Source: a virus. From it: DNA of 43,559 nt. Positions within the stretch are counted from its first letter, which is position 1. Each line of letters begins with the position of its first letter. Shown one piece after another: positions 1,698 through 43,559 of this stretch. The stretch lies in the IMG/VR virus record IMGVR_UViG_3300042373_001113, positions 1 to 43,559 of that record. One strand, 5' to 3'. The notes below the pieces were generated by a model. It was not told the origin of the DNA. It made no database searches and saw nothing but the letters and a program-made list of their open reading frames with translations. A program made the position numbers and the translations under genes.

Positions 1698-2068
1698 GCT
1701 GCCTCCCGCACCGGCTCGACGAACCGAGCCGTCACCGCGATCTTTCCCGCGCCAATCGCAACCAAAATCTGCACGCTGTTGGCCGCCTTGAGATACGTCG
1801 CCGCGCGCCCTGCGTAGCGGCCGCCGACGATCTGCACCGCCTGGCCGCGCGTGAGCCCCCATCGCCCGATACGCGGGCGAATCACGACCGCGCAGTCCTG
1901 CAGCGCGGCGGCTAGCTCGCGGCGGCCCTCGACGCCCAGGCGCTTCGACGCGGCGCGGATGTGTTGGTCGATGCAGCTCGGCGTGACGCCGAGTCGGCGG
2001 GCGGCCTCGGCGCGCGTGGTGCCGGCCGCGATGAGCCGCGCGGCTTCGTACTGGCGTGGTGTGAGCAT
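1694..2068 (-). CDS. LuxR/sigma-region-4-like HTH protein, copy 1
   Basis: 124 residues from ATG 2068. The N-terminal 45 residues (MLTPRQYEAARLIAAGTT, then AEAARRLGVT) match the GerE/LuxR-type or sigma-4-type helix-turn-helix: LTxRQ, AxG, then EAARRLGVTPSxIDQHIRAA as the recognition helix region. The C-terminal half (residues 60-120) has a KOW-like beta pattern (GQAVQIVGGRYAGRAATYLK), so the protein may bind nucleic acid twice. It lies just downstream of ninB. A second copy with a nearly identical protein lies at 43187-43559. A DNA-binding early regulator is a reasonable inference. Confidence 0.75.
   Translation of the reverse strand: MLTPRQYEAARLIAAGTTRAEAARRLGVTPSCIDQHIRAASKRLGVEGRRELAAALQDCAVVIRPRIGRWGLTRGQAVQIVGGRYAGRAATYLKAANSVQILVAIGAGKIAVTARFVEPVREAA
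1940..2066. repeat. 127-bp exact direct repeat, left copy
   Basis: Identical base for base to 43433-43559, the last 127 bases of the window. The base just left of it differs (G1939 against A43432). It lies inside the N-terminal coding part of the HTH gene. The exact match ending precisely at the window end suggests an assembly-graph join rather than a biological terminal repeat. Confidence 0.95.
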
Positions 2069-2070
2069 GG

Positions 2071-2469
2071 TCACTGCGGGACTCCTAGTTCGATGCCAAG
2101 CTCGCTCGTGGCGTATGCCTCGATACGATCCATGTAGGCGGTGAAATCGGCCACCGACAGCGTGGTGGTGCTGATCGGCACGCTCGCGCCCGACGGCGTC
2201 TCGCTCCAGCCGATGAAGCGCCCGGCAAACTCGGCGTGCCACACGTCCGCCGTGTACTGCCGACCGCCGACCCACGCCGATGACGAGATGTCGTTCAGCA
2301 GCGCCCAATACCGGCGGTTCTGGTCGCCGCTGCGCTTGGCCTTCGCCTCGCACACCGTGACCGCCAGCGGCCGACCGGCCTGCGCCATCTCAAGCCAGTT
2401 GGCCTTGAGGAACGCCCAGAGCTGGCGGGCCTGCGGGGCCGAGCGGAGGATGAAGACGCGCTGCATCAT
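2071..2469 (-). CDS. ninB: NinB-like recombination mediator
   Basis: 132 residues from ATG 2469 (TGATG overlap with erf); GTG 2472 or ATG 2466 are alternative starts. The segment KAKRSGDQNRRYWALL, followed by a WHAEFAGRFIG block and a C-terminal YMDRIEAYATSELGI, is the hallmark of the lambda NinB (Orf) family. These proteins bind single-stranded DNA/SSB and substitute for RecFOR in phage recombination. Its position directly after an Erf-type annealing gene fits a recombination module. Function is from family knowledge. Confidence 0.88.
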   Translation of the reverse strand: MMQRVFILRSAPQARQLWAFLKANWLEMAQAGRPLAVTVCEAKAKRSGDQNRRYWALLNDISSSAWVGGRQYTADVWHAEFAGRFIGWSETPSGASVPISTTTLSVADFTAYMDRIEAYATSELGIELGVPQ

Positions 2470-3143
2470 CACGCGATGGCTTTGGACTTCTCAGTCGCCG
2501 CATACCCCGCGTATTCCTTGATCGCGGCACGCACCGCGCTGTGCTTGGACAGCATGTCCCACAGGATCATCCGGTCCTCGCCCATCACGCGCGACGCAGC
2601 GCGGTGCAGCTCCCAGAACCCGCTTGCGTCGTTCTCGCGCTCCATCTGCGACACGGCGGCGGCATGCGTAGCGATGCAGGCGTCAGCAACCTCGCGGATG
2701 GCCCGATGCTTGTCCGCCTCTGCGTCGGGCTGCTGTGCGCCGTTCTGCCGCGCGCCGTGGGGCTTGCTGGCTGCGTTGCCGTCGTCGTCCTCGGCGGGCA
2801 CGCCGAACGCGGTCATCAGCGAGTACCGACGACAGTACGTCAGCGCGCTGCCGAAGCCCTGCGCGTCATGCTTCGTCGCCGGGACGAACAGTGGCCCGCA
2901 CGGCAGCGACTGGCCGCTCTCGTGGTGGATCACGGTCTCGACGCAGACGCCACCCTCGACGCTGTGCGTGACCTGGCGGAACCACAACCCGTGGTCCGCA
3001 AGCGCCGGCTTGATCGCGTCAACCACCGACGACAGGTCCGCGTACTTGCTGCGGAACGCCGGGTTCGCTTTGCCCTTGATCGCGCCCTCGATCGCCGGGA
3101 ATGCTTTCGCCATCGCCGCGCTGAGTTCCTTGATGCTGTCCAT
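2469..3143 (-). CDS. erf: ERF-family single-strand annealing protein
   Basis: 224 residues from ATG 3143, behind GAGGAAGAGC. The N-terminal 120 residues carry the ERF family signature: MAKAFPAIEGAIKGKANPAF..KYADLSSV, the HHESGQSL block, and the GSALTYCRRYSL motif. This family anneals complementary single strands during recombination and genome circularisation. The C-terminal part (after residue 125) is variable and charged. It is coupled to ninB, giving a compact recombination module. Confidence 0.92.
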   Translation of the reverse strand: MDSIKELSAAMAKAFPAIEGAIKGKANPAFRSKYADLSSVVDAIKPALADHGLWFRQVTHSVEGGVCVETVIHHESGQSLPCGPLFVPATKHDAQGFGSALTYCRRYSLMTAFGVPAEDDDGNAASKPHGARQNGAQQPDAEADKHRAIREVADACIATHAAAVSQMERENDASGFWELHRAASRVMGEDRMILWDMLSKHSAVRAAIKEYAGYAATEKSKAIA

Positions 3144-3204
3144 GCTCTTCCTCGTGTTGTTGGAGTTCTGCCATCACTTCCGCGTGGAACCGCTGCTCGC
3201 TCAT
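3019..3204 (-). CDS. Possible 61-aa overlapping ORF or leader of erf
   Basis: A frame starts at ATG 3204, coupled (TGATG) to the stop of the preceding gene. It begins MSEQRFHAEVMAELQQHEEEH and then runs inside erf in another frame. The first 20 codons have natural composition; the part inside erf is Gly/Gln-rich and looks like shadow. It may be a translated leader that couples erf to the upstream gene, or a small real protein. Confidence 0.3.
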   Translation of the reverse strand: MSEQRFHAEVMAELQQHEEEHGQHQGTQRGDGESIPGDRGRDQGQSEPGVPQQVRGPVVGG

Positions 3205-3449
3205 CAGGCCGCCAGCAGGTTGACGGCCCACCACAGCAGCAGGCCGAACAGCGCCCACACGGCGATGCCGCCCACCACCGCGTTGCGCAGCATCCGCAGC
3301 CCGTCGCCGTCGATGTCGTCGTGCTGCTGGTCCTTCCAGCCCTGTGCGTGTCGGGCGCTGATGCCGCGCGCGACCTGCGGGTCGACCTGCAGCCCGGTGC
3401 GGCGCACGCCCGAGAGCAGGCGGCGGTGACGCATCGATTGCGCGTTCAT
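3204..3449 (-). CDS. Small membrane-anchored early protein
   Basis: 81 residues from ATG 3449 (ATGA overlap with the gene upstream); the longer frame is Arg-rich shadow. The N-terminal two thirds are basic and soluble (QSMRHRRLLSGVRRTG). The C-terminus has one transmembrane helix (VVGGIAVWALFGLLLWWAV), so it is a tail-anchored inner-membrane candidate. Small early membrane proteins in lambdoid operons often act in superinfection exclusion or host takeover; no specific role is shown here. Confidence 0.6.
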   Translation of the reverse strand: MNAQSMRHRRLLSGVRRTGLQVDPQVARGISARHAQGWKDQQHDDIDGDGLRMLRNAVVGGIAVWALFGLLLWWAVNLLAA

Positions 3450-3745
3450 GCCGCCCCCTGCGCGTTGACTGCCGCCGCGATCTCGCTTGCGGCCTGCTCG
3501 GTGGCGAACGTCATCCGCACGCCGTCGCTGTCGCACAGCGCCACGTAGACGCCCTGCGACACGCGGCGCGTCACGCCGTAGCCGGTGACACGCGCGCAAT
3601 CGACGTCGCTGCGCATGATCGGCGTCGGCACCCAGTCGCCGCGCATCTCCGCGCGGTGCTCGGCGCGCTCGCGGCGGATGTTGTCCGCGACGTCCGACGC
3701 ATGCGCCTCGGCGCGCTCCTGCTGCTCGAACGCGGCGCGGCTCAT
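3446..3745 (-). CDS. Early protein of unknown function
   Basis: 99 residues from ATG 3745 (ATGA overlap with the pentapeptide gene). It begins with a charged helix rich in Arg/Glu (AFEQQERAEAHASDVADNI), followed by a beta-rich half (GVYVALCDSDGVRMTFATEQAASEIAAAV) resembling a small modulator fold. No family is recognised. Confidence 0.55.
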   Translation of the reverse strand: MSRAAFEQQERAEAHASDVADNIRRERAEHRAEMRGDWVPTPIMRSDVDCARVTGYGVTRRVSQGVYVALCDSDGVRMTFATEQAASEIAAAVNAQGAA

Positions 3746-4644
3746 GCGGCCTCCGAAACAACGGCAGCCGGAGTCCAGCACTCCGCGTGCATCTCGATCA
3801 GTGCAATCGCTGCGGCGTACTCGCGGGCGTGGATTGACTCGCCGTGCGTCTTGATGACAGCGGCGCGGAACTTGTCCAGCGAGCCGAAGAAGCAACCCGC
3901 GCGCACCCGCACGCCCGCGTCGGTCAGGTACGCAACGACGTACGAGCTGCGCGATCCGATGGGGCCAATTTGAATAATCGGGCGCTTGCCGATCAGCTTG
4001 GCCCCGGCGAGGTTGGCCCCGGCGAGGTTGGCCCCGGCGAGGTTGGCCCCGGCGAGGTCGGCCCCGACGAGGTTGGCCCCGGCGAGGTTGGCCCCGGCGA
4101 GGTCGGCCCCGACGAGGTTGGCCCCGGCGAGGCTGGCCCCGGCGAGGTCGGCCCCGACGAGGTTGGCCCCGGCGAGGCTGGCCCCGGCGAGGTAGGCCCC
4201 GTCGAGCTTGGCCTCGGCGAGGTCGGCCCCGGCGAGGTCGGCATTGGCGAGGTCGGCCCCGCCGAGGTAGGCCCTGGCGAGGTCGGCCCCGGCGAGGTTG
4301 GCCCCGGCGAGGTCGGCCCCGACGAGGTTGGCCCCGGCGAGGTTGGCCCCGGCGAGGTCGGCCCCGACGAGGTTGGCCCCGCCGAGGTAGGCCCTGGCGA
4401 GGTCGGCCCCGGCGAGGTTGGCATTGGCGAGGTCGGCCCCGCCGAGGTAGGCCCTGGCGAGGTCGGCCCCGGCGAGGTTGGCCCCGCCGAGGTTGGCCCC
4501 GGCGAGGTAGGCCCCGTCGAGCTTGGCCCCGGCGAGGTAGGCCCCGTCGGATACCGCCGCCTCCACCACGTCTCGCAGCGACTCACCGTCGCCCGTGTAC
4601 AGCACGGCGCCCGTGTTGCGGTGCTTAATCGTGTGCTCAGCCAT
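3742..4644 (-). CDS. Pentapeptide-repeat protein
   Basis: 300 residues from ATG 4644 (TGATG overlap). After about 32 residues, some 35 uninterrupted pentapeptides of the A(D/N)LxxA type ([20 protein letters not shown]) fill about residues 33-205. They predict a right-handed quadrilateral beta-helix. The C-terminal 90 residues are a separate domain containing [25 protein letters not shown] and an [12 protein letters not shown] helix. That tail is similar to the small domain found after pentapeptide repeats in other phage proteins. Known pentapeptide proteins such as MfpA and Qnr mimic DNA and bind gyrase; whether this one does is untested. The DNA repeat is near-exact, suggesting recent expansion. 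Confidence 0.85.
4006..4545. repeat. 15-bp tandem repeats encoding pentapeptides
   Basis: Units of the type ggccccggcgaggtt/gtc repeat about 35 times, with a few recurrent variants (gacgaggtt, gccgaggta, attggcgag). Longer 45-90 bp blocks are also duplicated, for example the block ending in gccgaggtaggccctggcgagg, seen three times. This explains the spurious PGEVG and TSPGP frames in other readings. Confidence 0.9.
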
Positions 4645-4733
4645 CAGAACACCCGCCCGGCGATGAGTTGGTACATGAGCGCCGAGCACAGCGCCCACGC
4701 GGTCAGGTACGCGACAATTTTGGCGGCGGTCAT
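4644..4733 (-). CDS. 29-aa membrane peptide
   Basis: ATG 4733 overlaps the upstream stop by ATGA, and the stop overlaps the pentapeptide start by TGATG, so the reading frame is bracketed by coupled neighbours. The peptide is MTAAKIVAYLTAWALCSALM followed by YQLIAGRVF: a single transmembrane helix with a short basic end. Function is unknown. Confidence 0.5.
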   Translation of the reverse strand: MTAAKIVAYLTAWALCSALMYQLIAGRVF

Positions 4734-5083
4734 GCATCGCTCCAGTGCGATTCCGGAAGCGCGCCGCACTCGATCGACGCAGCGTCTGCGGCAAACATGC
4801 GATGCAAGCGGTGGCGCGCGGTGGGCGAGTAGATCGCCTCGGCCAGCGTGCGGGCCGCGTCGCCGCTGGTGTGCATCACCCACTCGACGAGCTCGACGCT
4901 GACGGGCGGGGCGGTCTCACGGCTCCAGTGCGCCGTCATGCACGCCAGCAGCGGGCGCGTCTCAAGGTCCGCGACGATCGCGGTCTCGCGCGTCGCACGC
5001 CAGGCTTGTTGCTTGGCGGTCTTGTCGGCAGCGCGGTCTTCGTACGCTGCGGCTGCGTCGGTCAGGTAGTCCCGGAATCCCAT
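4730..5083 (-). CDS. First gene of leftward early operon
   Basis: 117 residues from ATG 5083, placed 5 bases after GGAGGGC; the frame continues upstream but the ribosome site fixes this start. It begins MGFRDYLTDAAAAYEDRAADK. The middle contains RETAPPVSVELVEWVMHTSGDAARTLAEAI. It is the promoter-proximal gene of the leftward operon, about 40 bases from the -10 of the predicted pL, so it should be the first leftward product after induction. No family is recognised. Confidence 0.65.
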   Translation of the reverse strand: MGFRDYLTDAAAAYEDRAADKTAKQQAWRATRETAIVADLETRPLLACMTAHWSRETAPPVSVELVEWVMHTSGDAARTLAEAIYSPTARHRLHRMFAADAASIECGALPESHWSDA

Positions 5084-5120
5084 GCTGCCCTCCGTCTGCG
5101 TCGGGTGACGCGATGGAGAG

Positions 5121-5161
5121 ACTGTACCCAAAGGTAATGCTCAGTGCAATACCCCAAGGTA
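5121..5161 (-). promoter_or_regulatory. Leftward early promoter with two operators
   Basis: On the minus strand -35 TTGCAC (5149-5144), a 17-base spacer and -10 TACAGT (5126-5121) form a plausible sigma-70 promoter. Operator TACCCAAAGGTA (5125-5136) covers the spacer and the edge of the -10. Operator TACCCCAAGGTA (5150-5161) abuts the -35. The two start points are 25 bases apart, exactly as for two of the sites at the ci-cro region. Repression by the CI-like protein is inferred. Confidence 0.75.
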
Positions 5162-5245
5162 ACGAAACATCGCGACCACCCAAGCGAGGGGGCAACCGGC
5201 GCTTTCGGCTGGTAGAGTCGCGCGATTGTGTTGTTCGGATCGAAC

Positions 5246-5680
5246 ATGAACAGAGCTGCTCTTGCGCGTGCGACCCTGGCCGCGGCCAGCGTGGTCACCG
5301 TCCTAGCCGGGTGCGCCAGCCCGCAAGGCCCGCGTGGGCCGCAGCCGCATGAGGCGAGCGACTACCTCATCTGCGTTTCGCAAATCCGGCCCGGGGTCAG
5401 CGAGAGCGATCGCCTGCGAGGCGCGGAACAGATGCGAGTGCGCAACCTCGATTGCAGGCCGTACGCCGCGAGCATCCTGACCGAGTACAACGCCCAGGCT
5501 GGCGCACAGGCGCAGCGCGACGCCGCAATGACGAACTTCGGCCTGCAGATGCTGCGGCAGGGGCAGGCGCCAATGCCTTCTTTCCCGGCGCCCGCGCCTG
5601 CGTCCGACACGCGGGTCTACAACTTCAACGGCCGCACGATGACCTGCACGACGTCGGCCGGCTACACGAACTGCTACTGA
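5246..5680 (+). CDS. Lipoprotein, possible lysogenic-conversion gene
   Basis: 144 residues from ATG 5246. A signal peptide (MNRAALARATLAAASVVTVLAGC) ends in a clear LAGC lipobox with Cys23, so the mature protein should be lipidated, probably to the outer membrane. The body is hydrophilic with further cysteines (LICVSQ, LDCRPY) and a C-terminus TRVYNFNGRTMTCTTS..TNCY. The gene faces away from the leftward operon and toward ci, on its own strand, together with the next gene. This is the position and orientation of a moron expressed in the lysogen. Function is unknown. Confidence 0.75.
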   Translation: MNRAALARATLAAASVVTVLAGCASPQGPRGPQPHEASDYLICVSQIRPGVSESDRLRGAEQMRVRNLDCRPYAASILTEYNAQAGAQAQRDAAMTNFGLQMLRQGQAPMPSFPAPAPASDTRVYNFNGRTMTCTTSAGYTNCY

Positions 5681-5684
5681 CGCC

Positions 5685-5972
5685 GTGAACGGGAGCGAAG
5701 GGCTGCGTCGCATCGCGGCGGTAATCCGGTGGATCGGGATAGGGTTGGCCGCGGCTTCCCTGTTGTTCGGGCTTGCCATGACTGTGACCGTTCTTGGCGA
5801 CCACTTGTCGTGCGTGCCGACTATTGCCCGCGACGGATCGGTCTTGGAATGTCGAAGCCGGCTAGGCGAGATGGCAGGTGGCGTGGCCGGAGGCCTCGGC
5901 TTCGCCGCGTTCTTCTACATCGGCGCTCGAGTAACCGCCTGGATCATCGAGGGGTTCGCCGCGCCGAAGTAG
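5685..5972 (+). CDS. Two-helix membrane protein, moron partner
   Basis: 95 residues from GTG 5685, 4 bases after the lipoprotein stop. Two hydrophobic helices (about 10-40, IGLAAASLLFGLAMTVTVL, and 65-88, GGVAGGLGFAAFFYIGARV) flank a short loop with two cysteines (LSCVPT, LECRSR). It is convergent with ci. With the preceding lipoprotein it forms a two-gene envelope unit; superinfection exclusion or a host-surface change are possibilities, not demonstrated. Confidence 0.65.
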   Translation: MNGSEGLRRIAAVIRWIGIGLAAASLLFGLAMTVTVLGDHLSCVPTIARDGSVLECRSRLGEMAGGVAGGLGFAAFFYIGARVTAWIIEGFAAPK

Positions 5973-5991
5973 GGCGGGCGAATCCCCTCGG

Positions 5992-6768
5992 CTACAGCAC
6001 CTTCGCCGTCCAGGCCAGCAGCGCGCGGCCGTGCACCTGGTACGCCGCGCGGTCGCCGCGGGCGATTCGCCGATCGCGATACCGCGGGTTGTCGCTGATC
6101 ACCGTCAGCGAGCCATCGTCCTCGCGCTGCAGGCGCTTCACGAGCAGCTCGCCGTCGCGCGAATAGACGTAGACGCCGTCGCGGTCGATCGCTGACACGC
6201 CCGAGTCGACGAGCAGCACGTCGCCGTCCTCGAAGGTGCCCGCCATGCTGTCCCCGTAGGCCGAGAGCAGCTTCAGGTTCTTCAGGCTGGTGAACGTCGT
6301 GCGGATCAGCCGCCGGCGCAGCCCCTCTTTGGACACCCGCACGAGCGTCACCACGTCGCTCGCGCCGTCACTGCCTTCGCCCATCATCGCCCGGACCCCT
6401 TCGTACTGCGGAAGCCACATCTCACCGGGGCGCAGGCTCAGCATCTGAGCTTGGGTGTGGGGCTCGCCCAAGAGGGTCAGGTTGCCGGCTGAGGAAGCGG
6501 TCGTCTTCGCCTGAATGACGGCTGCGGTATGCCCGCTCGAGTCGATCAGCACGACATCGGGCCGATCCAGCCACCCAACCGGCATCTCCGTCTGCTGCTC
6601 AACGAAGCGCGCGAAGTCCTCTCCTATCCGCTTCGTGCCCTTGAGGCAACGCGAAATGTAGTCGGGCTGGCGCTCGATCGCCGTTGCCAGGCCGACCTGC
6701 TTGCCGCCGAACTTTGTGTCGATCAGTTCGCGCAGGCGGGCGCGTCTGGTTTCGTAGATATCCACCAC
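5992..6768 (-). CDS. CI-like repressor, S24 self-cleaving type
   Basis: 258 residues from GTG 6768; GTG 6765 is an alternative. N-terminal helix-turn-helix at about residues 22-55 (KQVGLATAIERQPDYISRCLKG). The C-terminal S24/LexA-like domain has YGDSMAGTFEDGD with nucleophile Ser174 and the general-base Lys211 in ELLVKRLQ. This is the classic prophage repressor that keeps the lytic promoters off and cleaves itself with RecA after DNA damage. It faces a cro-like gene across an operator cluster. Operators at both the leftward promoter and this site support its role. Confidence 0.92.
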   Translation of the reverse strand: MVDIYETRRARLRELIDTKFGGKQVGLATAIERQPDYISRCLKGTKRIGEDFARFVEQQTEMPVGWLDRPDVVLIDSSGHTAAVIQAKTTASSAGNLTLLGEPHTQAQMLSLRPGEMWLPQYEGVRAMMGEGSDGASDVVTLVRVSKEGLRRRLIRTTFTSLKNLKLLSAYGDSMAGTFEDGDVLLVDSGVSAIDRDGVYVYSRDGELLVKRLQREDDGSLTVISDNPRYRDRRIARGDRAAYQVHGRALLAWTAKVL

Positions 6769-6846: not shown

Positions 6847-6853
6847 TCGTGGC

Positions 6854-7227: not shown

Positions 7228-7695
7228 ATGGCCGCAGTCTCTCCTTTCCCGTCCACGATCGACCGTCAACCGCCGTCGAGAGTGTCGACGGCCCTTGCCG
7301 GACGCCAGCTCCCGATGGTCACGCCCGGCGATCCGATCGACGTTGACCCGGCGTTGGTCCACCGCCAGTCGTCGATGACTGCGGCGATCCAGCTCTGCCT
7401 GCAGGCGGCCGGCATCGCCGACAAGGAGGCACACCTCGCGCTCGGGATCGATGCCGGCCACTGGTCGCGGATCCTGCGCGGCGACGCGCACTTCCCGCTG
7501 CACCTGCTCGGCCCGCTGATGGATCTCGCCGGCAACGAGGCGCCGCTCGAGTGGTTGGCGCACAGCCGCGGCTACGAGCTGCGCCCGCTCGAGACCGAGC
7601 TCGAGCGCCAGGTGCGCGAGGAGCAGGAGCGCAACGCCCGGCTCGCCGACGAGAACCGGCTGCTGCGCGAGATGCTGGTCGGGAGGGGGCGGTGA
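7228..7695 (+). CDS. HTH regulator with C-terminal coiled coil
   Basis: 155 residues from ATG 7228, behind GAGG. The centre (about 50-90, MTAAIQLCLQAAGIADKEAHLALGI) reads as a helix-turn-helix like the CII or DNA-binding domains of phage regulators, followed by AGHWSRILRGDAHFP. Residues 115-150 are a long charged heptad-like helix (LETELERQVREEQERNARLADEN) that would oligomerise. Its position after cro suits a CII-type lysogeny activator, but sequence does not prove it. Confidence 0.6.
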   Translation: MAAVSPFPSTIDRQPPSRVSTALAGRQLPMVTPGDPIDVDPALVHRQSSMTAAIQLCLQAAGIADKEAHLALGIDAGHWSRILRGDAHFPLHLLGPLMDLAGNEAPLEWLAHSRGYELRPLETELERQVREEQERNARLADENRLLREMLVGRGR

Positions 7696-7973
7696 ACGAC
7701 CCGTTCGGCCGCTGCGCCGATGCGCTCGAGGTGCACGCGAGCCTGCCGCGCGGGCGCGTGGTGCCGCTCGCGGCCAGCCGCGTGGACGACGACGAGCTGC
7801 AGGCCACCCCGGGCGCCGCATCTGCGATCCGATCTCACTACCGCATGGCCGAGCACGCCAAGGCGCTCGGCATGTCGCAGAAGCAGTTTCGCGCCGCACG
7901 CCGCGCCGGGACGCTGCCGCCTGCGCTGCTGAAGCGCCACCCCCGAAGCGACAAGGGAGGCTCCCGTGCCTGA
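7692..7973 (+). CDS. Small early regulator-like protein
   Basis: 93 residues from GTG 7692 (GTGA overlap). The C-terminal half contains SHYRMAEHAKALGMSQKQFRAARRAGTLPP, which resembles the helix-turn-helix of small excisionase/MerR-like proteins, with a basic tail. The N-terminus lacks motifs. Function is unknown; DNA binding is likely. Confidence 0.55.
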   Translation: MNDPFGRCADALEVHASLPRGRVVPLAASRVDDDELQATPGAASAIRSHYRMAEHAKALGMSQKQFRAARRAGTLPPALLKRHPRSDKGGSRA

Positions 7974-8304
7974 ACAGCTTTCCATGCTGCCGGCGCTTGA
8001 CGCGCTGGTGCCTCCGCCGGCCGTCGACCCGGCGGTGAACGTGCGGTCGTTCGACCCGGTGACGAGCTTCGTCGCCGCGAAGATGGCGCGCAAGTTCGCC
8101 GGCACCCAGTGCGACACGATCCATGCGTGCCTGCGCGAGCACGGGGCGATGTCGAAGGACCAGCTCGCGTCGCGGCTGCGGCTCGACGGCGTGGCGATCG
8201 CGCGCCGGCTGGCGGACCTGCAGAAGCAGGGCCGGGCGGAGCCGACCGGAGCGACGCGGCTGTCGGCGGCGAGCCGGCCCGAGCGGGTGTGGAGGGCTGC
8301 GTGA
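7966..8304 (+). CDS. Winged-helix DNA-binding protein
   Basis: 112 residues from GTG 7966 behind AGGGAGG, overlapping the previous gene by 8 bases. Residues 45-110 show a winged-helix pattern: TQCDTIHACLREHGAMSKDQLASRLRLDGVAIARRLADLQKQGRAE then a VWR ending. It follows regulators and precedes the replication genes, so it is a candidate regulator or origin-binding accessory. Confidence 0.6.
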   Translation: MPEQLSMLPALDALVPPPAVDPAVNVRSFDPVTSFVAAKMARKFAGTQCDTIHACLREHGAMSKDQLASRLRLDGVAIARRLADLQKQGRAEPTGATRLSAASRPERVWRAA

Positions 8305-9218
8305 GCCAGCTCCCCGCGCCGCCCGTCGCGTCCGACGTCGACCTGCGCGACTTCGCGTACATGCCGCTCGACGTTCGCCGCCTGCTGACCTCCGAGACCT
8401 GGGTGCTCGGCCGGGCCGAGGAGAAGATCGCCGCGATCAACCTCTGGTGCGAGGCGTGGCACCAGGTGCCCTGCGGAAGCCTCCCCGACAACGAGCGGAT
8501 GCTCGCGCACCTGTCGCAGGCCGGCGCGGGCTGGAAGAAGGTCCGATCCCATGCCATGCGCGGCTGGGTGCTCTGCTCCGACGGGCGCTGGTATCACCCG
8601 GTGATCGTCGAGAAGGCGCTTGAGTCATGGGCCAAGAAGGTCGCGCAGCGCCAGCGCACGCAGCGCGCGACACAGGCCCGGTGGAAGGGGAAGCCCGACC
8701 CGACACCTCCCGACGGATCCTCCTCGGCGCATTCTGAGCAGTCACGTCAGCCGATCCCGACGGAGTCCGTAACGGAGAGCGCGACGGACTCCGTAACGGA
8801 CACCGTTACGTTCACCAAGGGAGAGGGAAGGGAAGGGAAGAGAAGCTCGCTATCGCTCGCCGCGAGCGCGCCCGCGCCCGACCTGCCGCCGGCGGTGAGG
8901 CTGGCGATCGAGGCGAGGCAGCACGGCGTGCAGGTCACCGGCAGCGATCCGAGGCTGATCGCCGCGGCCGAGCAGGGGGTCACGGTCGAGACGCTGCGGG
9001 ACGTGATCGCCGAGTGCGCCCGCCGCAAGGGCAGTGCCCCGGCGATCGGCTACGTCCTCGCCACGCTGCAGGGCTGGGCCACCGATGCTGGCCGGCTGAC
9101 GGTCGTCGGCGCAGCAGCACCCGCCCGAGGCGGGGTCACCAACGCCGAGCTCGACCAGCTCGTCGCCAAGCTCGAGGCCGAGGCCCGGGAACGAGGGGAA
9201 TCCGATGCAGCCGCATGA
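8301..9218 (+). CDS. DUF1376/YdaU-like replication initiator
   Basis: 305 residues from GTG 8301 (GTGA). The N-terminal 110 residues (FAYMPLDVRRLLTSETWVL, AAINLWCEAWHQVPCGSLP, VLCSDGRWYHPVIVEKALESWAKK) match the DUF1376 family found in phage replication initiators. A Ser/Thr-rich low-complexity linker (about 140-175) and a C-terminal domain with a possible helicase-binding role (ECARRKGSAPAIGYVLATLQGWA) follow. It is analogous in position to lambda O, and the replication origin may lie inside it, with the linker DNA (8745-8815, repeats of gtaacgga) as candidate iterons. Confidence 0.75.
   Translation: MSQLPAPPVASDVDLRDFAYMPLDVRRLLTSETWVLGRAEEKIAAINLWCEAWHQVPCGSLPDNERMLAHLSQAGAGWKKVRSHAMRGWVLCSDGRWYHPVIVEKALESWAKKVAQRQRTQRATQARWKGKPDPTPPDGSSSAHSEQSRQPIPTESVTESATDSVTDTVTFTKGEGREGKRSSLSLAASAPAPDLPPAVRLAIEARQHGVQVTGSDPRLIAAAEQGVTVETLRDVIAECARRKGSAPAIGYVLATLQGWATDAGRLTVVGAAAPARGGVTNAELDQLVAKLEAEARERGESDAAA
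8765..8815. repeat. Short direct repeats in initiator gene, candidate origin
   Basis: The linker region of the initiator gene reads gagtccgtaacggagagcgcg, gactccgtaacggacaccgttacg: two copies of (g)a(g/c)tccgtaacgga about 24 bases apart, plus an inverted gttacg. Lambda-like origins sit as iterons inside the O gene. This is a weak, short signal. Confidence 0.35.
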
Positions 9219-9819: not shown

Positions 9820-10055
9820 CCCTCTGCCCCGAGTGCCGCGCCGCCGAGGACGATCGGCTGCACGCGTTCTACCGCAACCAGCTGTGCTGCTACGCCCGCT
9901 CGATCATGGCCGGCGTCAAGCGCGATCGCGAAGCGAACTCCGCCGCGGTGAAACGCGCGATCCCGCCCGACGAGTGGGCGATCGTCCGGGCCCGCCTGCT
10001 GGTGCTGATCGAGCGAGAGAAGGCCGCCGAGTCGGCGCAGGAGAAGGCGGCATGA
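9816..10055 (+). CDS. 79-aa Cys-containing protein
   Basis: Starts at ATG 9816 (ATGA). The N-terminus has CPEC then LCCYARSIM, which could hold a metal, and the remainder is a basic/acidic helix. It is probably a small replication-region accessory; no family is recognised. Confidence 0.55.
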   Translation: MTLCPECRAAEDDRLHAFYRNQLCCYARSIMAGVKRDREANSAAVKRAIPPDEWAIVRARLLVLIEREKAAESAQEKAA

Positions 10056-11063: not shown

Positions 11064-11105
11064 CAATCGTCCCGTCTCCTCCTCCGCGGTCCGCCAGGAC
11101 CGCTT

Positions 11106-11126
11106 AGCCCGGCCCCGCGCCGGGCT
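11106..11126 (+). terminator. Hairpin at end of early rightward operon
   Basis: AGCCCGGC (11106-11113) pairs perfectly with GCCGGGCT (11119-11126) around a 5-base loop. The following bases are tctcac, so only a weak T run is present. It lies between the early HTH gene and the packaging genes, a natural place for a terminator that late expression must pass. Confidence 0.6.
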
Positions 11127-11132
11127 TCTCAC

Positions 11133-11374: not shown

Positions 11375-11378
11375 GATC

Positions 11379-17721: not shown

Positions 17722-17724
17722 CCC

Positions 17725-17861: not shown

Positions 17862-17864
17862 CGC

Positions 17865-37516: not shown

Positions 37517-37788
37517 CCGACGAGGAGCGAGGGATGCGATTCAGCCGCGAGGTACGCATCGGCGAGCTGATCGCCGCACTGCTCGCGATCTCTGCGATGG
37601 CGACCGGGTACATCGAGCTGCGAATCAAGCCGCTCGAGCAGCAGATCGCCGCAGTGGACCGGGCGCGCGTAGCCGACCGCGAGTCGGCGAACGAGTTCAA
37701 GCGCGAGCTGCGCGGGGACTTGCAGCGGTTGGAGTCGAAGTTGGACCGGCTGATCGAGAACATCCCGCAGGTACGGAGGACGCAATGA
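37513..37788 (+). CDS. Small membrane protein of lysis region
   Basis: 91 residues from ATG 37513. One transmembrane helix (ELIAALLAISAMATGYIEL, about 18-36) is followed by a heptad-rich helix (LEQQIAAVDRARVADRESANEFKRELRGDLQRLESKLDRLIE). It lies just before a holin-like gene and the endolysin. It may be a holin partner or pinholin-type protein; not assigned. Confidence 0.55.
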   Translation: MTDEERGMRFSREVRIGELIAALLAISAMATGYIELRIKPLEQQIAAVDRARVADRESANEFKRELRGDLQRLESKLDRLIENIPQVRRTQ

Positions 37789-38060
37789 TCGACCCCACCC
37801 CGCCCGGCGCACGCATGCGCTGGATCTGGATCGTGCTCGCTGCCTCGACGGCGGTGCTGGTGTGGCAGTACCCGGAGCAAGCTGGCGTGCTGGCGTCCAA
37901 GATCAACCGGATCGCGCTTGGGGCGGCGCTCGGGGTCATGCTCGACCGTGCGGTGTTCCCCTACGCGCGGCCGAACGAGGTCGACGACGAGGCGGCGTGG
38001 ATGTACCGGCGGGCCGCGCTGATGATCGGCGGCATGCTCGCCGCGGCGCTCGCGCTGTGA
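37785..38060 (+). CDS. Putative holin
   Basis: 91 residues from ATG 37785 (ATGA). Hydrophobic segments at about 12-27 (RWIWIVLAASTAVLVW), 40-56 (INRIALGAALGVMLDRAVF) and 76-91 (RAALMIGGMLAAALAL) give two or three helices with short charged loops. It is immediately upstream of, and coupled to, the endolysin by GTGA. The size and setting fit a holin or holin-like membrane protein. Confidence 0.65.
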   Translation: MIDPTPPGARMRWIWIVLAASTAVLVWQYPEQAGVLASKINRIALGAALGVMLDRAVFPYARPNEVDDEAAWMYRRAALMIGGMLAAALAL

Positions 38061-38782
38061 CGACCGATCCGCGCGACCCGGTGCGGGATCTGCTGGCGCT
38101 GGTGGAGCGCGGCGGGTTCATCGAGGGTCGGCGGCACCCGACGTTGGCGGCGAAGGTGCGCTGGGCACTGCTCGGGTTTGTCGCCGGGGTGGTCGCGACC
38201 CTGTGGTGGGCGGCCGCGGCTTCGGCCCAGGTGCCGCCGGCTGCCGAGGCGTACCGACGGGATCTTGTGCGGGCTGCCCAGGACGTGTGGGGCATAGACG
38301 CGCCGGTGTCGCTGCTCGCCGCGCAGCTCCACGCCGAGTCCGGGTGGCGACCTGGTGCGGTCTCGCCGGCCGGTGCCCGGGGTCTCGCGCAGTTCATCGA
38401 CTCGACCGCCGCCGACGTCGCCAGGCGCTACGGCGGCGGCCCGGCCAACCCGTTCGACCCGCGCTGGGCCATGACCGCGCAGTCACGCTACATGCGCGAG
38501 CTGCACGCCGCGGTCGCAGGCGCCGCCAACCCGTCCGAGCGCATGGCGTTCGCGCTCGCCGGGTACAACGGCGGCATGCGGTGGGTGCAGCGCCGCCGCG
38601 CCGCGTCGCCGACGCCCGAACGGTGCTTCAACGCCGCGTGCGACATCAACCCGGGCATCACGGCGGCCAACCAGCGCGAGAACCGGGCCTACCCGCGCCG
38701 CATCATCCTGGAGCTGATGCCGCGCTACCACGCCGCCGGCTGGGGCGGCCCGGCGCTGCACGCCCGCTACCTCGGAGGCTGA
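38057..38782 (+). CDS. SLT-type endolysin with N-terminal membrane signal
   Basis: 241 residues from GTG 38057 (GTGA). A helix at about 33-56 (VRWALLGFVAGVVATLWWAAAASAQ) is either a cleavable signal (ASAQ) or a signal-anchor. The lytic transglycosylase domain begins at about 65, with catalytic Glu94 in LLAAQLHAESGW, AGARGLAQFIDSTA, and AGYNGGM. It cuts the glycan strand of peptidoglycan. Because it carries its own export signal, it could be a secreted or signal-arrest-release enzyme. Confidence 0.88.
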   Translation: MTTDPRDPVRDLLALVERGGFIEGRRHPTLAAKVRWALLGFVAGVVATLWWAAAASAQVPPAAEAYRRDLVRAAQDVWGIDAPVSLLAAQLHAESGWRPGAVSPAGARGLAQFIDSTAADVARRYGGGPANPFDPRWAMTAQSRYMRELHAAVAGAANPSERMAFALAGYNGGMRWVQRRRAASPTPERCFNAACDINPGITAANQRENRAYPRRIILELMPRYHAAGWGGPALHARYLGG

Positions 38783-38785
38783 TGC

Positions 38786-39304
38786 ATGTTTGGACTTGCA
38801 CGTCTGCAATGGGTCGGCTTTGCGCTGGCCGTACTGGTCGTGACGCACGGCGGGGCCTATGCCGCTGGCTGGTTCCGCGGCGTCGCCAGCGAGCGCGCTG
38901 TCTGGCAGACCGAGCGGTCCCGGGTCATGGCCGAGGCCGCGGCGACCGCCGAGCGCCTGCGCGGGGAGGGCAAGCGGCTGGCTGCCGAGCTTGAGCTGGC
39001 CCGGGCCGAGGTCCGTACGGTCTACGTTGACCGGCTGCGCACGATCTACAAGACGGCCAGCCCGTCCGCGCAGTGCCTGTCGCCGGACGTCACCGCGGCC
39101 CTGAACCGCGCCCCGATCCGCGAGACAGTCGAGCGCCCCGGCGAGCCGCCGCGCGCCGTCGACCCGCCGCCTGCCACCGGCGGCACGTCCGAGCTGGCCG
39201 CCGCCGAGTGGATCGCCGGGGCCCAGGCCGCGCACGCCGAGTGCCGGAACCAGGTGCAGCGGCTGGCCGACTGGATCCGATCCGTCACCACGAGCACGCC
39301 ATGA
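38786..39304 (+). CDS. Rz-like inner-membrane spanin
   Basis: 172 residues from ATG 38786. An N-terminal transmembrane helix (about 8-28, QWVGFALAVLVVTHGGAYAAGWF) is followed by a long periplasmic coiled helix (SERAVWQTERSRVMAEAAATAERLRGEGKRLAAELELARAEVRTVYVDR) and a C-terminal part with CRNQVQRLADWI. This is the Rz topology: it joins the outer-membrane partner to fuse membranes at the end of lysis. Its end overlaps the Rz1 gene by four bases (ATGA). Confidence 0.85.
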   Translation: MFGLARLQWVGFALAVLVVTHGGAYAAGWFRGVASERAVWQTERSRVMAEAAATAERLRGEGKRLAAELELARAEVRTVYVDRLRTIYKTASPSAQCLSPDVTAALNRAPIRETVERPGEPPRAVDPPPATGGTSELAAAEWIAGAQAAHAECRNQVQRLADWIRSVTTSTP

Positions 39305-39471
39305 CCCGCATCCTGATCCTCTGCGCGCTGCTCGCCGGCTGCGCCACGACCACGCCCGTCGATTGCCGCATCCCGGCGCCACCGGACGCGCTGCTCGCCG
39401 TGCCGCCGCCGCTGCCACCGGTGCCGGCAGACCTCGTTCCGCCATCAGGCGAACCGCGCCGCCAACAGTGA
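39301..39471 (+). CDS. Rz1-like outer-membrane lipoprotein spanin
   Basis: 56 residues from ATG 39301 (ATGA with Rz). The signal MTRILILCALLAGC ends in a LAGC lipobox with Cys14. The mature part is short and Pro-rich (PAPPDALLAVPPPLPPVPADLVPP), exactly as expected of Rz1. It is paired with the preceding Rz as a two-component spanin. Confidence 0.85.
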   Translation: MTRILILCALLAGCATTTPVDCRIPAPPDALLAVPPPLPPVPADLVPPSGEPRRQQ

Positions 39472-39498
39472 CGGCGCGAGCACGCTCTTTCGAGGCGA

Positions 39499-39520
39499 TC
39501 CCCGGCTCAGCCGGAGGGGA
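39499..39520. terminator. Hairpin between convergent operons
   Basis: TCCCCGGC folds onto GCCGGAGGGGA with a three-base loop TCA and one bulged A. It lies 28 bases after the Rz1 stop and just before the end of the leftward gene at 39539. No T run follows on the plus strand. Its position between convergent operons suits termination, but strength is uncertain. Confidence 0.45.
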
Positions 39521-39538
39521 ACCCGGCCGCTTGTGAGT

Positions 39539-39892
39539 TCATCCGCCGGCCGCAGGGTCGGCGGACTTCTCAGGCATCGCTCGGCCGATCTCAGCGGCGG
39601 CGCGGACGATGGCGCGGCGCTGTGCGGCGTCGGGGTCGTTCCCGCATGGCTCGGATGTCGTGCCGCCGCCCCACTCGCAAAACCTGGCGTCTACACTCCC
39701 GAAAATGTCGATGCCCAGCCGAACCGCCAGCCTCAGCGCGTCGCCGTCGTCGGTCAGCGGATCCCAGAACCACGCGCATCCGGAAACGCCCAACTCCCGG
39801 ACATACATCCGCCTTTCTACCTCCTCGTTGAACGCCAGCCACTCCAGCCCCGCCGCCTTCGCGGCCTGTTCCAGCAGCTCGCGATCCGCCAT
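39539..39892 (-). CDS. Last leftward gene, unknown
   Basis: 117 residues from ATG 39892 behind GGAGGGA; GTG 39895 is alternative. Begins MADRELLEQAAKAAGLEWLAFNEEVERRMYVRELG, contains WFWDPLTDDGDALRLAVRLGI, and ends with a basic/acidic helix. The WDPLxxDGDALRLAVRLGI pattern is typical of small phage proteins of unknown function found in accessory regions. Overlaps the upstream stop by TGATG. Confidence 0.6.
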   Translation of the reverse strand: MADRELLEQAAKAAGLEWLAFNEEVERRMYVRELGVSGCAWFWDPLTDDGDALRLAVRLGIDIFGSVDARFCEWGGGTTSEPCGNDPDAAQRRAIVRAAAEIGRAMPEKSADPAAGG

Positions 39893-40071
39893 CACTCCCT
39901 CCCTGCGCGCAGCATCGCCACATAGTCAACGTGCGGGCGCATCCGCGCAATCTCTGCGCGCAGCCGCTCGATCTCGCTCGCGGCGTAGGCCAGCGCCGCG
40001 CGGATGTCGTCCGCAGTCATCTCGCCGGCATGCTTGCCCATGTACGTCCACGTAGTGGAATCATCGCTCAT
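39892..40071 (-). CDS. 59-aa early protein
   Basis: From ATG 40071 (6 bases after GGGAG; ATG 40077 also possible). Begins MSDDSTTWTYMGKHAGEMT and continues as one long helix (DIRAALAYAASEIERLRAEIARMR). Small coiled-coil type; function unknown. First gene after the candidate attP. Confidence 0.5.
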   Translation of the reverse strand: MSDDSTTWTYMGKHAGEMTADDIRAALAYAASEIERLRAEIARMRPHVDYVAMLRAGRE

Positions 40072-40089
40072 CACCATCTCCCGTTGCCT

Positions 40090-40292
40090 GTCCAATATTT
40101 CCGCGCGACACCTCAGAAACCCCGGTGATTCCGGAGCCTATCGCCGCCGATCGTATTGGACGGCGTGCGGTGAAGATCCTTGTGCCATGCGGCGTGGCGG
40201 GCGATCGGCGCAGAACTGACCGAGTACCTGAACCGCCCGGAGACGCCCTATCCATGCGGCCCCGTCGTCCAATATTTGACGATCGTCCAATA
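40090..40292. promoter_or_regulatory. Candidate attP region with repeated GTCCAATA sites
   Basis: The 222 bases between the integrase stop and the next gene hold no gene. They contain direct copies of GTCCAATATTT at 40090-40100 and CGTCCAATATTT at 40266-40277, CGTCCAATA at 40284-40292, and an inverted copy (TATTGGACG) at 40154-40162. Repeats in this place are typical of integrase arm sites around attP. The core cannot be fixed without the host sequence. Confidence 0.6.
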
Positions 40293-40293
40293 C

Positions 40294-41283
40294 TCAGGCC
40301 GATTTCGGCCGCTTCATGACCGGCCCGGGCACGACCGGAACCACCCGGTCACGCAGGTAGCCGCGCGTCGTGCGGCGGTCGCTGTGGCCGAGCAGCGCCT
40401 GCGGGTCGATGCCCTGCGCGTCGGCGTCCGTGCCGCTCATGGCGCGTAGGTCGTGGATGTTCGCGCCGGTCACGCGGGCGCGCTTGCACGCCGCCTTCCA
40501 GCGCTTGTACGCCATCGCATAGGTCGGGGCGCGGAACCCGAATAGGTACGGCGGACGTAGCGCCAGGGGCTTGAGCGCGCGGGCTGCAGCGACTGCCTCG
40601 CGCAGCTCCTGCGTCCAGGCGACTGTGACCCGCGCGCCGGTTTTCTGCTGCTCGAAGTAGATCCCGTCGGCGCCGATGTCCTGCGTGCGGATCGCCAGCA
40701 CGTCGCCCACCCGCTGGCCGGTGGCGTAGCACAGCGCCATGACCGCGCGCAGCAGCGGGTCGGCGTTGGCATAGATCGAGTCGTACTCGTCCACGGTAAT
40801 GCGCCTGGTGCGTGGCGCGAGCTTGATCCGCTCGACGCCTGCTGCCGGGTTCGTGACGAGCAGCTCGTCGTCTACGGCCTCGGCCATGATGAGCGACAAC
40901 ACAGTGAGCGCGCGGTTCGCGACGGCGGGTGTGTCCTGCAGCTCGCGGCGCAGGTCCTTCACGTCGCGCGGCGTCATCTCGTCGGGCGACAGGTGGGCGA
41001 GCATGTCGCGCAGCAGCGCGGCGCACAGCTTGTACTGGCGCTGCGTCTCGGCCGCCTTGGGCTTGCCGGTGCGCTTGTCGCGCAGGATGCGCGGGAGCAT
41101 GGTGTCGATGAGGGCCGGCATGCGGCCAGTCGAGCGGCCGGCGAGGCGGGCATATTCGCGCAGCGCCTCAGGCAGCTCAGCGCCGAGCCGCGTCCACTTT
41201 CCGCGCTGGACGAGGTAATACGCGCTGTGCCGGTGATACACGCAGGGCGGTAGGTGCCGGTCGTGCTTGCGGGGTCGGTTCAT
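40294..41283 (-). CDS. int: Tyrosine-type phage integrase
   Basis: 329 residues from ATG 41283 behind GGAGAG. The N-terminal arm-binding region (about 1-45) is basic. The catalytic residues are all visible: Arg191 (TGQRVGD), Lys214 (EQQKTGA), His277 and Arg280 (IHDLRAMS), His300 (LLGHSD) and Tyr309 (TTRGYL). It carries out site-specific integration and, with an excisionase, excision. It lies next to the repeat-rich attP candidate and just after the DUF4224 gene. Confidence 0.95.
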   Translation of the reverse strand: MNRPRKHDRHLPPCVYHRHSAYYLVQRGKWTRLGAELPEALREYARLAGRSTGRMPALIDTMLPRILRDKRTGKPKAAETQRQYKLCAALLRDMLAHLSPDEMTPRDVKDLRRELQDTPAVANRALTVLSLIMAEAVDDELLVTNPAAGVERIKLAPRTRRITVDEYDSIYANADPLLRAVMALCYATGQRVGDVLAIRTQDIGADGIYFEQQKTGARVTVAWTQELREAVAAARALKPLALRPPYLFGFRAPTYAMAYKRWKAACKRARVTGANIHDLRAMSGTDADAQGIDPQALLGHSDRRTTRGYLRDRVVPVVPGPVMKRPKSA

Positions 41284-41422
41284 CTGCGTCTCTCCGGAAC
41301 ACCACGATAGACCCATCTGGCCTGGTGCGATACGCCACCCCGAGCGCGTCGAGGACACGCGCTTGTGCCTTGTGGCGCGTGCGGCCCGTCAGCAGCGTGA
41401 GGTCGGCGGGCGTGAGAATCAC
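41177..41422 (-). CDS. DUF4224-like excisionase candidate
   Basis: 81 residues from GTG 41422, coupled (GTGA) to the preceding gene. Residues 1-45 (ILTPADLTLLTGRTRHKAQARVLDALGVAYRTRPDGSIVV) match the DUF4224 pattern, a small DNA-binding domain usually placed just before integrases. The C-terminal Pro/Arg tail overlaps the integrase start by 107 bases. A directionality factor is the likely role. Confidence 0.72.
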   Translation of the reverse strand: MILTPADLTLLTGRTRHKAQARVLDALGVAYRTRPDGSIVVFRRDADEPTPQARPAPTALRVSPAQRVLPRPARKVDAARR

Positions 41423-41733
41423 GGCTCGCGCACCCCCAACGCCGCACGCAGTGCCGCACGCATGGCTGAACGCGCGTCGTCGTCGATGTCCGCCGCGTCG
41501 TACTTGCTGCCGTCGATTTCCGCCCACTCGCGCGTGTGTGCCTCGCACGCCGCCTTGACCATCTCGTCGGTGATATCGACTGGCGCGTCAACCTGCCGCC
41601 AGTCGAAGCCTCCCGTCTCTGCCGACCCTGCGCCGCTATAGAGACAGCCGATCCAGTCCTCGATCAGCAACTCGTCGGCCTCGTCGTCGTACTCCTCGGG
41701 ACGGTCGATGCGGATGTACACGGGCTTGCTCAT
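41419..41733 (-). CDS. Small acidic early protein
   Basis: 104 residues from ATG 41733 (ATGA overlap). It is acidic (YDDEADELLIEDWIG), contains WRQVDAPVDITDEMVKAACEAH and ends RAALRAALGVREP. Helical; no family is recognised. Part of the accessory module upstream of the integrase. Confidence 0.55.
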   Translation of the reverse strand: MSKPVYIRIDRPEEYDDEADELLIEDWIGCLYSGAGSAETGGFDWRQVDAPVDITDEMVKAACEAHTREWAEIDGSKYDAADIDDDARSAMRAALRAALGVREP

Positions 41734-42206
41734 CGCCCGCCCCCGATCTGCCCGATCTGCGCGCGGAGTGCGTCGATGGCGCGCTGCCGTAGCCGCTGCG
41801 CCGCTTCTGGCTGGTCGCTCTTAAAGATCCAGTCCGATGTCTGCTCTAGCGCCTCCAACGCCATCCGCATCGCCTCCACCGCAGCGGCAGGCAGGGCGGG
41901 CGCGGGGTGGGCGTAGAGCGCCATGCCCACCGGCAGCACCATCGCGCGGTTGATCGGCTCGACGACCGTGCGGCCTGCGTGGACCCCGGTGACGCTGGCG
42001 ATCGGCTCGCTCGGCTCCGCGACGCCCACGACGATGGCCCCGCACGTCGTGCATTCGGTCGTCTGCTCCGCGCTCGGTGCGGGCAGGTCGGTTGCAAGAG
42101 CGTCGCGCAGTCTATCGATCCACCCGCGCAGGCATTCCGCCGTGCCGTAGTGGTCCCACGCGGAAAGCACGTCGCGCGCAGCTTTGTGCAGGTCGCGGCG
42201 GCTCAT
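41730..42206 (-). CDS. Accessory early protein with CxxC
   Basis: 158 residues from ATG 42206. The N-terminal helical part (MSRRDLHKAARDVLSAWDHYG) is followed by a CTTC pair in ECTTCGAIV, a possible half zinc site, and a C-terminal helix (AAAVEAMRMALEALEQTSDWIFK, then EAAQRLRQRAIDALRAQIG). It may bind nucleic acid or protein; no family is recognised. Junctions with both neighbours are coupled. Confidence 0.55.
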   Translation of the reverse strand: MSRRDLHKAARDVLSAWDHYGTAECLRGWIDRLRDALATDLPAPSAEQTTECTTCGAIVVGVAEPSEPIASVTGVHAGRTVVEPINRAMVLPVGMALYAHPAPALPAAAVEAMRMALEALEQTSDWIFKSDQPEAAQRLRQRAIDALRAQIGQIGGGR

Positions 42207-42607
42207 CGCGTCTGCTCCTTCTCGTCGTCAGCGAGGTCGACCGCCTCGCACACCGCCACGCACCGCGCACGTTCCTGCGCCATCCCCGCCGCGACGCCTC
42301 GGGCGAGTGCATCGCGGACGTACTGCTGCGCACACACGGTTATCCACACCGCGATGTCGTTCGACAGCGGCGTGCCGTCGATGTAACGCGCCCATACCGC
42401 CTTGCCGCGAACGTACGCATCGGCTTCGCGCATCATTGCGTCGAACGTCGGCAGATCCCCGCCCATCTCCACGAGCCGCGAGAGGACGGCGCGCTCGACT
42501 GCTCGGCCATAGCGGATCAGTTCGTAGATGGGCCAGCCGGCGGTACAGGTGAGGCCGGCTTCGCGCACAAGGGCGCGGTGATCGTCGTCGCTCAGGATCT
42601 CGCTCAT
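42203..42607 (-). CDS. Accessory early protein
   Basis: 134 residues from ATG 42607 (ATGA with the small membrane gene). Begins MSEILSDDDHRALVREAGL; later GRAVERAVLSRLVEMGG and a helical C-terminus ending EKEQTR. The last codons contain the AAGGAG ribosome site of the next gene. The N-terminus resembles the truncated gene at window positions 1-107. Function is unknown. Confidence 0.55.
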   Translation of the reverse strand: MSEILSDDDHRALVREAGLTCTAGWPIYELIRYGRAVERAVLSRLVEMGGDLPTFDAMMREADAYVRGKAVWARYIDGTPLSNDIAVWITVCAQQYVRDALARGVAAGMAQERARCVAVCEAVDLADDEKEQTR

Positions 42608-42747
42608 TGCTTGCACTCCGCTGCGATGCGTGCGTTCTCGGCGTTGCGGACTTCGGACTTATGCATCATGTACGCCAGCACGCCGAACCAAATCACGCCG
42701 AGAATGATCGGCGCGGCCAGCCACGGGTCAAATTGTCGTCGCTTCAC
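42604..42747 (-). CDS. 47-aa membrane protein
   Basis: GTG 42747 follows AAGGAG by 8 bases, and the TGA (42606-42604) overlaps the next ATG. The protein starts MKRRQFDPWLAAPIILGVIW and continues FGVLAYMMHKSEVRNAENARI, one transmembrane helix with a basic start and polar end. Bracketing by coupled starts and stops supports it. Function is unknown. Confidence 0.6.
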   Translation of the reverse strand: MKRRQFDPWLAAPIILGVIWFGVLAYMMHKSEVRNAENARIAAECKQ

Positions 42748-43190
42748 TTGCTCTGCTCCTTCGCCGCGAGGGCGTCGATGCGGGCGAGGAGAGCGTCCGG
42801 AGCCCCGCTCGATCCGTGGTAGTTCGCATACGCGACCGCCCCGCGCGCCTCCGTCAGCAGCGCCGCCATCGCGTCACGCTCCCGCTCGACCGCTTCCAGC
42901 CGGTCGAGCAGCGGGAGGATGGCGGCGGGCGAGGCGGCGGCGATGTAGGCGGCGTTAGGGCTTCGCATGCCTTGAGGGCTGTCCGCATAATCAAATGGGC
43001 ACAAAGCAACACTCGCGGCGTCAGAAGTTACCGACGCGCCTGCGTATACGCATTTATTTTTGCCAGCACCGCGCACATACGTCCACTCACTGCGGTCGTG
43101 CAAATCCGTGTCAAGTGCTGATGCACGCCACGGCCCAGGCGTCGCGGCTTGCGCGGCCTCGCGCAGACGCTTGATGTCGTCGTCGGTCAT
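42744..43190 (-). CDS. Ea22-like early protein
   Basis: 148 residues from ATG 43190. The N-terminal AATPGPWRA, then NAAYIAAASPAAILPLLDRLEAVERERDA, are the pattern of Ea22-like phage proteins found in accessory early regions. An insert carries a cysteine (NKCVYAG) and DSPQGMRSP. Ends DALAAKEQSK, with the conserved ribosome-site codons. Function is unknown. Confidence 0.68.
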   Translation of the reverse strand: MTDDDIKRLREAAQAATPGPWRASALDTDLHDRSEWTYVRGAGKNKCVYAGASVTSDAASVALCPFDYADSPQGMRSPNAAYIAAASPAAILPLLDRLEAVERERDAMAALLTEARGAVAYANYHGSSGAPDALLARIDALAAKEQSK

Positions 43191-43559
43191 GCTGCTTCCC
43201 GCACCGGCTCGACGAACCGAGCCGTCACCGCGATCTTTCCCGCGCCAATCGCAACCAGAATCTGCACGCTGTTCGCGGCTTTCAGGTACGTCGCCGCGCG
43301 CCCTGCGTAGCGGCCGCCGACGATCTGCACCGCCTGGCCGCGCGTGAGCCCCCATCGCCCGATACGCGGGCGAATCACGACCGCGCAGTCCTGCAGCGCG
43401 GCGGCCAGCTCGCGGCGGCCCTCGACGCCCAAGCGCTTCGACGCGGCGCGGATGTGTTGGTCGATGCAGCTCGGCGTGACGCCGAGTCGGCGGGCGGCCT
43501 CGGCGCGCGTGGTGCCGGCCGCGATGAGCCGCGCGGCTTCGTACTGGCGTGGTGTGAGC
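43187..43559 (-). CDS. LuxR-like HTH protein, copy 2 (start cut)
   Basis: The frame lacks only the first two bases of its ATG (the last window base is the G of ATG on the minus strand). The predicted protein is almost identical to copy 1, with the same helix-turn-helix (EAARRLGVT, IDQHIRAASKRLGVEGR) and C-terminal KOW-like part. DNA identity is complete over the last 127 bases and diverges slightly upstream. It precedes the Ea22-like gene in the leftward module. Most simply it is the continuation of the circular genome, with ninB upstream. Confidence 0.75.
   Translation of the reverse strand, partial: LTPRQYEAARLIAAGTTRAEAARRLGVTPSCIDQHIRAASKRLGVEGRRELAAALQDCAVVIRPRIGRWGLTRGQAVQIVGGRYAGRAATYLKAANSVQILVAIGAGKIAVTARFVEPVREAA
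43433..43559. repeat. 127-bp exact repeat, right copy at window end
   Basis: Identical to 1940-2066 and ending exactly with the window. The base before it (A43432) differs from its counterpart (G1939). If the molecule continues from here into 2067, the ATG of this HTH copy is completed and ninB follows, giving a circle of about 41,493 bp. Confidence 0.92.

Follow-up and report, generated by a model that had tools for sequence, protein, structure and literature searches.

The early-left region of lambdoid phages (exo-xis, ea22), as outlined in PMC7093339 and PMC9836094, is a mosaic of leftward genes, exchanged between phages, that lie between the recombination genes and the integrase gene and include an Ead/Ea22-like gene. 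A second kind of precedent comes from metagenome assembly. According to the COBRA paper (PMC10914622), contigs may share ends as long as the largest k where there are repeats, regions common to several genomes or sites of local variation; the end overlap left by metaSPAdes is given there as maxK, and as n-1 in PMC7111523, which also presents one genome whose circle could be closed by either of two variant sequences. The DNA considered here is the whole of IMG/VR virus record IMGVR_UViG_3300042373_001113, 43,559 nucleotides in length (hereafter the window). As in the lambdoid region of those accounts, its recombination genes and its integrase gene have a set of leftward genes between them, an Ead/Ea22-like gene included, but its NinB gene lies inside the leftward operon-like run and its G+C content is 69%. 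Like the assembly cases described in PMC10914622 and PMC7111523, it contains an exact shared stretch of the largest k size (127 bp), but one of the two repeat copies is internal.

An earlier note on this DNA had pointed out that the end of the window repeats an internal site, and sequence comparison bears this out: positions 43433-43559 are identical to positions 1940-2066 at 127 of 127 bases, and the left-flanking base is G at 1939 versus A at 43432. This is the longest exact direct repeat of the window (one 127-mer is repeated, and no 128-mer), and a repeat of this length is not a matter of chance. In the k=127 graph of the window the left copy is the single branch node, with an in-degree of 2 and an out-degree of 1, while at k=128 the graph has none. 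Split at k=127, the record resolves into a cycle of 41,493 bp (1940-43432, with 43559 continuing at 2067) and a tail of 1,939 bp, and from the base at which these two paths last differ (1939/43432) it is 127 bases to the contig end. The figure of 127 had been called a standard maximum of assembler k, which agrees with the k of up to 127 given for metaSPAdes in PMC10914622, although the assembler used for this record may differ. A direct terminal repeat was considered and rejected: the exact end repeat was 0 over the lengths tried (20-1999), the plain end-to-end test being blank because one repeat copy is internal. Among the contigs of nine relatives examined, a repeated 127-mer was found in one, IMGVR_UViG_3300049597_000143 (G001), in which the first 127 bases recur at 39424-39550 and are followed by a SNP and 53 more bases. 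A 126-bp repeat is present near the ends of IMGVR_UViG_3300036399_000827 (G009).

The 127-bp repeat forms the right part of a longer gapless match of 373 bp (1694-2066 against 43187-43559, 364/373 or 97.6% identical), which reaches leftward to the stop codon of an HTH gene and breaks off there. The left copy of this gene (1694-2068, minus strand) encodes 124 aa with a LuxR-type HTH and a possible KOW-like C-terminal domain, whereas the right copy (43187-43559, minus strand) is without a start and runs off the window end. The predicted similarity to a KOW-like fold is no more than suggestive; the KOW domain (PF00467) scored 13.1 bits, under its Pfam gathering score of 22.3, and the HTH protein had no match among annotated phages. 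Both copies encode the same 123 residues, and their nine nucleotide differences are therefore silent. Continuing from 43559 into 2067 had been expected to restore the missing start and to place the gene right after ninB, and it would do both: bases 2067-2068 would complete an ATG identical to that of the left copy, and the NinB gene (2071-2469, minus strand), directly upstream, stops two bases before this ATG.

Closure from 43559 to 2067, giving a putative circle of about 41.5 kb, is supported by the gene order of relatives. G009 and IMGVR_UViG_3300033571_008359 (G010), both with repeated ends, keep the window gene order through the join, with one exception in G009, in agreement with the earlier proposal of a circular genome. 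In G010, which has an exact 87-bp end repeat, matches follow one another on one strand in the order 37519-39537, 40088-41446 (integrase), 367-933 and 1549-1655 (both in the tail), 3231-3454, 4642-5126, 7689-7979, 9814-10022, 10838-11198 and 11390-11482 of the window, and round its own ends come 15826-17703, 29701-29846 and 31931-32360; G010 therefore reads through the two ends of the window and has its own break at another place. In G009, too, the matches follow the closed map, except for a 127-bp match to 42087-42213, which lies beyond the integrase on the far side. A further locus, L023, carries in a row Erf, NinB, the HTH gene (a partial match), the tail gene arm108, the repeat gene and an Ead-like gene (32%).

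The spacing of two genes bears on the same point. The integrase gene (40294-41283, minus strand) lies about 2.7 kb downstream of the gene for the Erf-like annealing protein (2469-3143, minus strand) on the closed circle, as against 37 kb on the linear map. Among the best 80 of 203 Erf loci, 39 of which have at least 5 kb of downstream sequence, an integrase is present in five, always downstream, on the same strand and 1.65-4.09 kb away. Four query integrases were used in this search, three of them drawn from those same loci, and the integrase of the window as single query recovered four of the five; the 75 loci lacking an integrase match are uninformative either way. Around arm108 (best 80 of 282 loci), an Erf match was found in six, on the upstream side in five, two of which are contigs of L018 and L023, and on the other side in one (L182), and an integrase in two, downstream and on the same strand.

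Judging from its gene content, the window probably represents a tailed phage with lambda-like traits, namely an integrase, a CI-like repressor (5992-6768, minus strand) and leftward recombination genes, and the presence of genes for repressor, integrase, Erf and NinB makes it probably temperate. In lambda, ninB is located in a rightward region. The structural genes include those for the terminase large subunit (11840-13258) and the portal (13457-15646), both on the plus strand within 11840-15646, and a scaffold match was also obtained among the window proteins. The portal has matches in 304 phage records, with 32-38% identity among the 20 listed, and two other metagenomes contain base-identical pieces of the window, one of 22,397 bp (8677-31073) and one of 12,346 bp (8756-21101). 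When the first 6 kb were compared with annotated phages, six records matched, all in the pentapeptide-repeat region at 3.9-4.5 kb; an Erf scan of genome contigs returned two weak MAG loci, which were set aside.

One continuous leftward operon running from 5083 over the join to 39539 had also been proposed. The common orientation is supported, with no rightward gene called in 1-5083 or 39539-43559, but the run, which may not be a single operon, contains gaps of 222 bp (40072-40293), 135 bp (41284-41418) and 60 bp (3144-3203). Promoter scans of 39400-43559 and 1-5900 gave 2 and 0 sites, respectively, with 0.4 expected in each case, and terminator-like sites numbered 1 (1.2 expected) and 3 (2.4 expected) in the same two intervals.

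The tail (1-1939) had been taken for an alternative downstream module of a related variant, a proposal that is supported and can be refined. Its genes, all leftward, lie at 3-107 (partial), 276-638, 638-964, 954-1190, 1183-1530 and 1527-1697, followed by the 3' part of the HTH gene. In G001 and IMGVR_UViG_3300042301_001907 (G003) the tail is found between the HTH gene and a block corresponding to 41431-42305 (minus strand), which is common to both at 99.5%, flanks the swapped module and is separated from the tail by 132 bp. Because these two relatives join the tail to that block, the module at 1-1939 is allelic to that at about 42306-43432, the interval which on the cycle comprises the 5' part of gene 42203-42607, gene 42604-42747, the Ead/Ea22-like gene 42744-43190 and the 3' part of the HTH gene. 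Over 1-1764 the tail is identical to G003 bar one 18-bp indel, and up to 2066 it differs from G001 by 19 substitutions, 13 of them within 1243-1326. Gene 42203-42607 and its tail homologue, which begins with what is here the partial gene 3-107, have only their last 33 residues in common while the preceding part differs, which places one exchange point inside this gene. Tail gene 1183-1530 and the Ead/Ea22-like gene start alike (MIDDDIK versus MTDDDIK), with resemblance confined to the start and to short pieces; the Ead/Ea22-like family PF13935 scored 42.6 bits for gene 42744-43190, over the Pfam gathering score of 27, and 16.1 bits, under that score, for the tail gene. The Ead query returned one locus, at 33%.

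The likeness of G001 and G003 to the window comprises this tail allele and the 41431-42305 block, to which G001 adds 3651-5092 (89-97%) and its own 127-mer repeat. They differ from the window in that most of the structural region has no DNA-level match, and in that the place of NinB in the window is taken in G001 by another HTH gene, its second. In both G001 and a further relative, G002, homology to the window ends exactly at 2066, with the second HTH gene there in place of NinB, and the coincidence of this stop with the contig end is not explained by a simple one-exit branch. The HTH searches, which returned G001, G002 and G003 in one case and G001, G002 and G009 in the other, yielded no further record in which 43187-43559 is joined to 2067 in the manner proposed for the window, and the second, alignment-based search found no contig past G001, G002 and G009.

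Our preferred interpretation, to which we give a probability of roughly 0.9, is that the record traces a 'lasso' in the k=127 graph of a short-read assembly, produced by strain alleles that would have arisen through recombination. The sample would have contained at least two strains, the same at 1940-2066 and different downstream of the HTH gene, and the assembler would have placed the branch of one strain ahead of the cycle. The alleles may have diverged by recombination among related phages, themselves probably temperate, that exchanged DNA at two places, one at or inside the HTH gene and the other inside gene 42203-42607, and the cycle would correspond to a circular or circularly permuted form of the genome. 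What separates the strains looks like the usual swapping of genes among phages. It seems to us improbable that module exchange pivots preferentially on the HTH gene, with phages of one habitat conserving its protein and trading the genes behind it, aided by a ribosome-site/start/stop linker shared at these gene junctions, and with strains of one population differing mainly in Ea22-region genes as a result.

The most substantial rival, which we consider possible though at less than even odds, accepts the cycle as real but derives the tail from a phage of the G001/G003 type that would differ from the window in its structural region and on its upstream side, so that the path from 1939 through the 127-mer to 2067 would be chimeric. 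The near identity of the tail to G003, bar the one indel, is in keeping with such an origin, as are the position of all blocks common to G001/G003 and the window outside most of the structural region and the fact that, past 2066, G001 and G002 continue into a second HTH gene and not into NinB. Yet G001 mismatches the 127-mer at 2050 and 2060, so that a strain identical to it would not share the branch node; the first difference between tail and G001 is at 1765, just one base beyond the end of G003, as would be expected if this site had two alleles of the HTH gene; and in L018 and L023 tail genes lie downstream of Erf and NinB. We regard a tail strain having the same upstream (NinB) side as the window as somewhat more likely than a chimera, and the circle is independent of which upstream side that strain has.

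A single molecule bearing both modules and two HTH genes, whose contig ended at the repeat and whose DNA between 43559 and 1 is missing from the record, is very unlikely in our view. Tandem HTH genes do exist in G001, a full HTH gene accompanies a second, partial HTH match in G009, and tail genes are combined with Ead-like pieces or an Ead-like gene in G009 and L023. The two genes of G001, however, are paralogues with 48% identity, whereas the window copies differ only silently; in G001 and G003 no further HTH/Ead module separates the tail from the 41431-42305 block, and the model requires unseen DNA. The chance that the window is an integrated prophage, with 1-1939 as host chromosome and the repeat as attachment core, is close to negligible despite the integrase and the CI-like repressor, since the tail genes are found again in other viral contigs (one of them in 282 stretches) and, within phage genomes, between phage genes, and the repeat sits in the HTH gene about 2 kb from the integrase. 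A host flank or attachment site was likewise rejected, the tail genes being phage genes and no tRNA gene being found in the window. Just as little weight falls to a programmed module switch within one phage: the presence of two alleles next to HTH gene copies that encode one and the same protein could suggest it, but no exact 20-bp inverted repeat flanking the module was found, nor an invertase among the proteins scanned, which were those of a subset of genes.

Read as a lasso path, the record suggests a complete circular phage genome together with a strain variant, missed by the plain end-repeat test. Checking whether a contig end recurs exactly, over the length of the assembler k, inside the contig would recover such genomes and would at the same time reveal strain-level module swaps, a useful practical lesson on contig ends. 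The assembly effect is already known, and the biology is ordinary: the early region of this phage, which is probably temperate, is a mosaic.

The product of the HTH gene (1694-2068, minus strand) appears, in its predicted structure (pLDDT 84, pTM 0.47), to consist of a LuxR-type HTH and, after it, a small KOW/NusG-like barrel of five strands. The Pfam KOW score was under threshold, and a PDB fold search with the model gave no match at E<=0.001. Close relatives of this protein turned up in few contigs, and none among annotated phages.

Scanning of the window revealed a GGGAGGCAGCATGA-like linker, with 0-2 mismatches, at junctions of leftward genes, where it unites a ribosome-site-like GGAGG, a stop and the next start. 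All four copies (1527-1540, 1694-1707, 3742-3755 and 43187-43200) are on the minus strand, with none on the plus strand; G001, a relative carrying the arm allele, likewise possesses four.

Between the arm, the alternative module in front of the cycle, and its counterpart in G001, 13 substitutions are bunched at 1243-1326, inside the gene at 1183-1530, within an otherwise nearly identical stretch, possibly reflecting a small gene conversion. The Gly/Tyr/Asn-rich gene at 276-638, built of hexanucleotide repeats, differs by an 18-bp indel from that of G003, another arm-allele relative, and may often break assemblies, since the ends of two relatives, G009 and L018, fall within or beside it. The repeat region of the pentapeptide-repeat protein (3742-4644), matched by Caulobacter phages at 77-79%, is longer in the window than in G001. 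A 90-bp direct repeat (17757-17846 and 18032-18121; 83%) lies about the start of the 1083-aa gene.

Finally, two other metagenomes each yielded a contig (IMGVR_UViG_3300042327_000981 and IMGVR_UViG_3300044628_000819) with a piece that matches the window base for base, in one case over 22,397 bp (8677-31073) and in the other over 12,346 bp (8756-21101); the same phage has therefore been sampled more than once.
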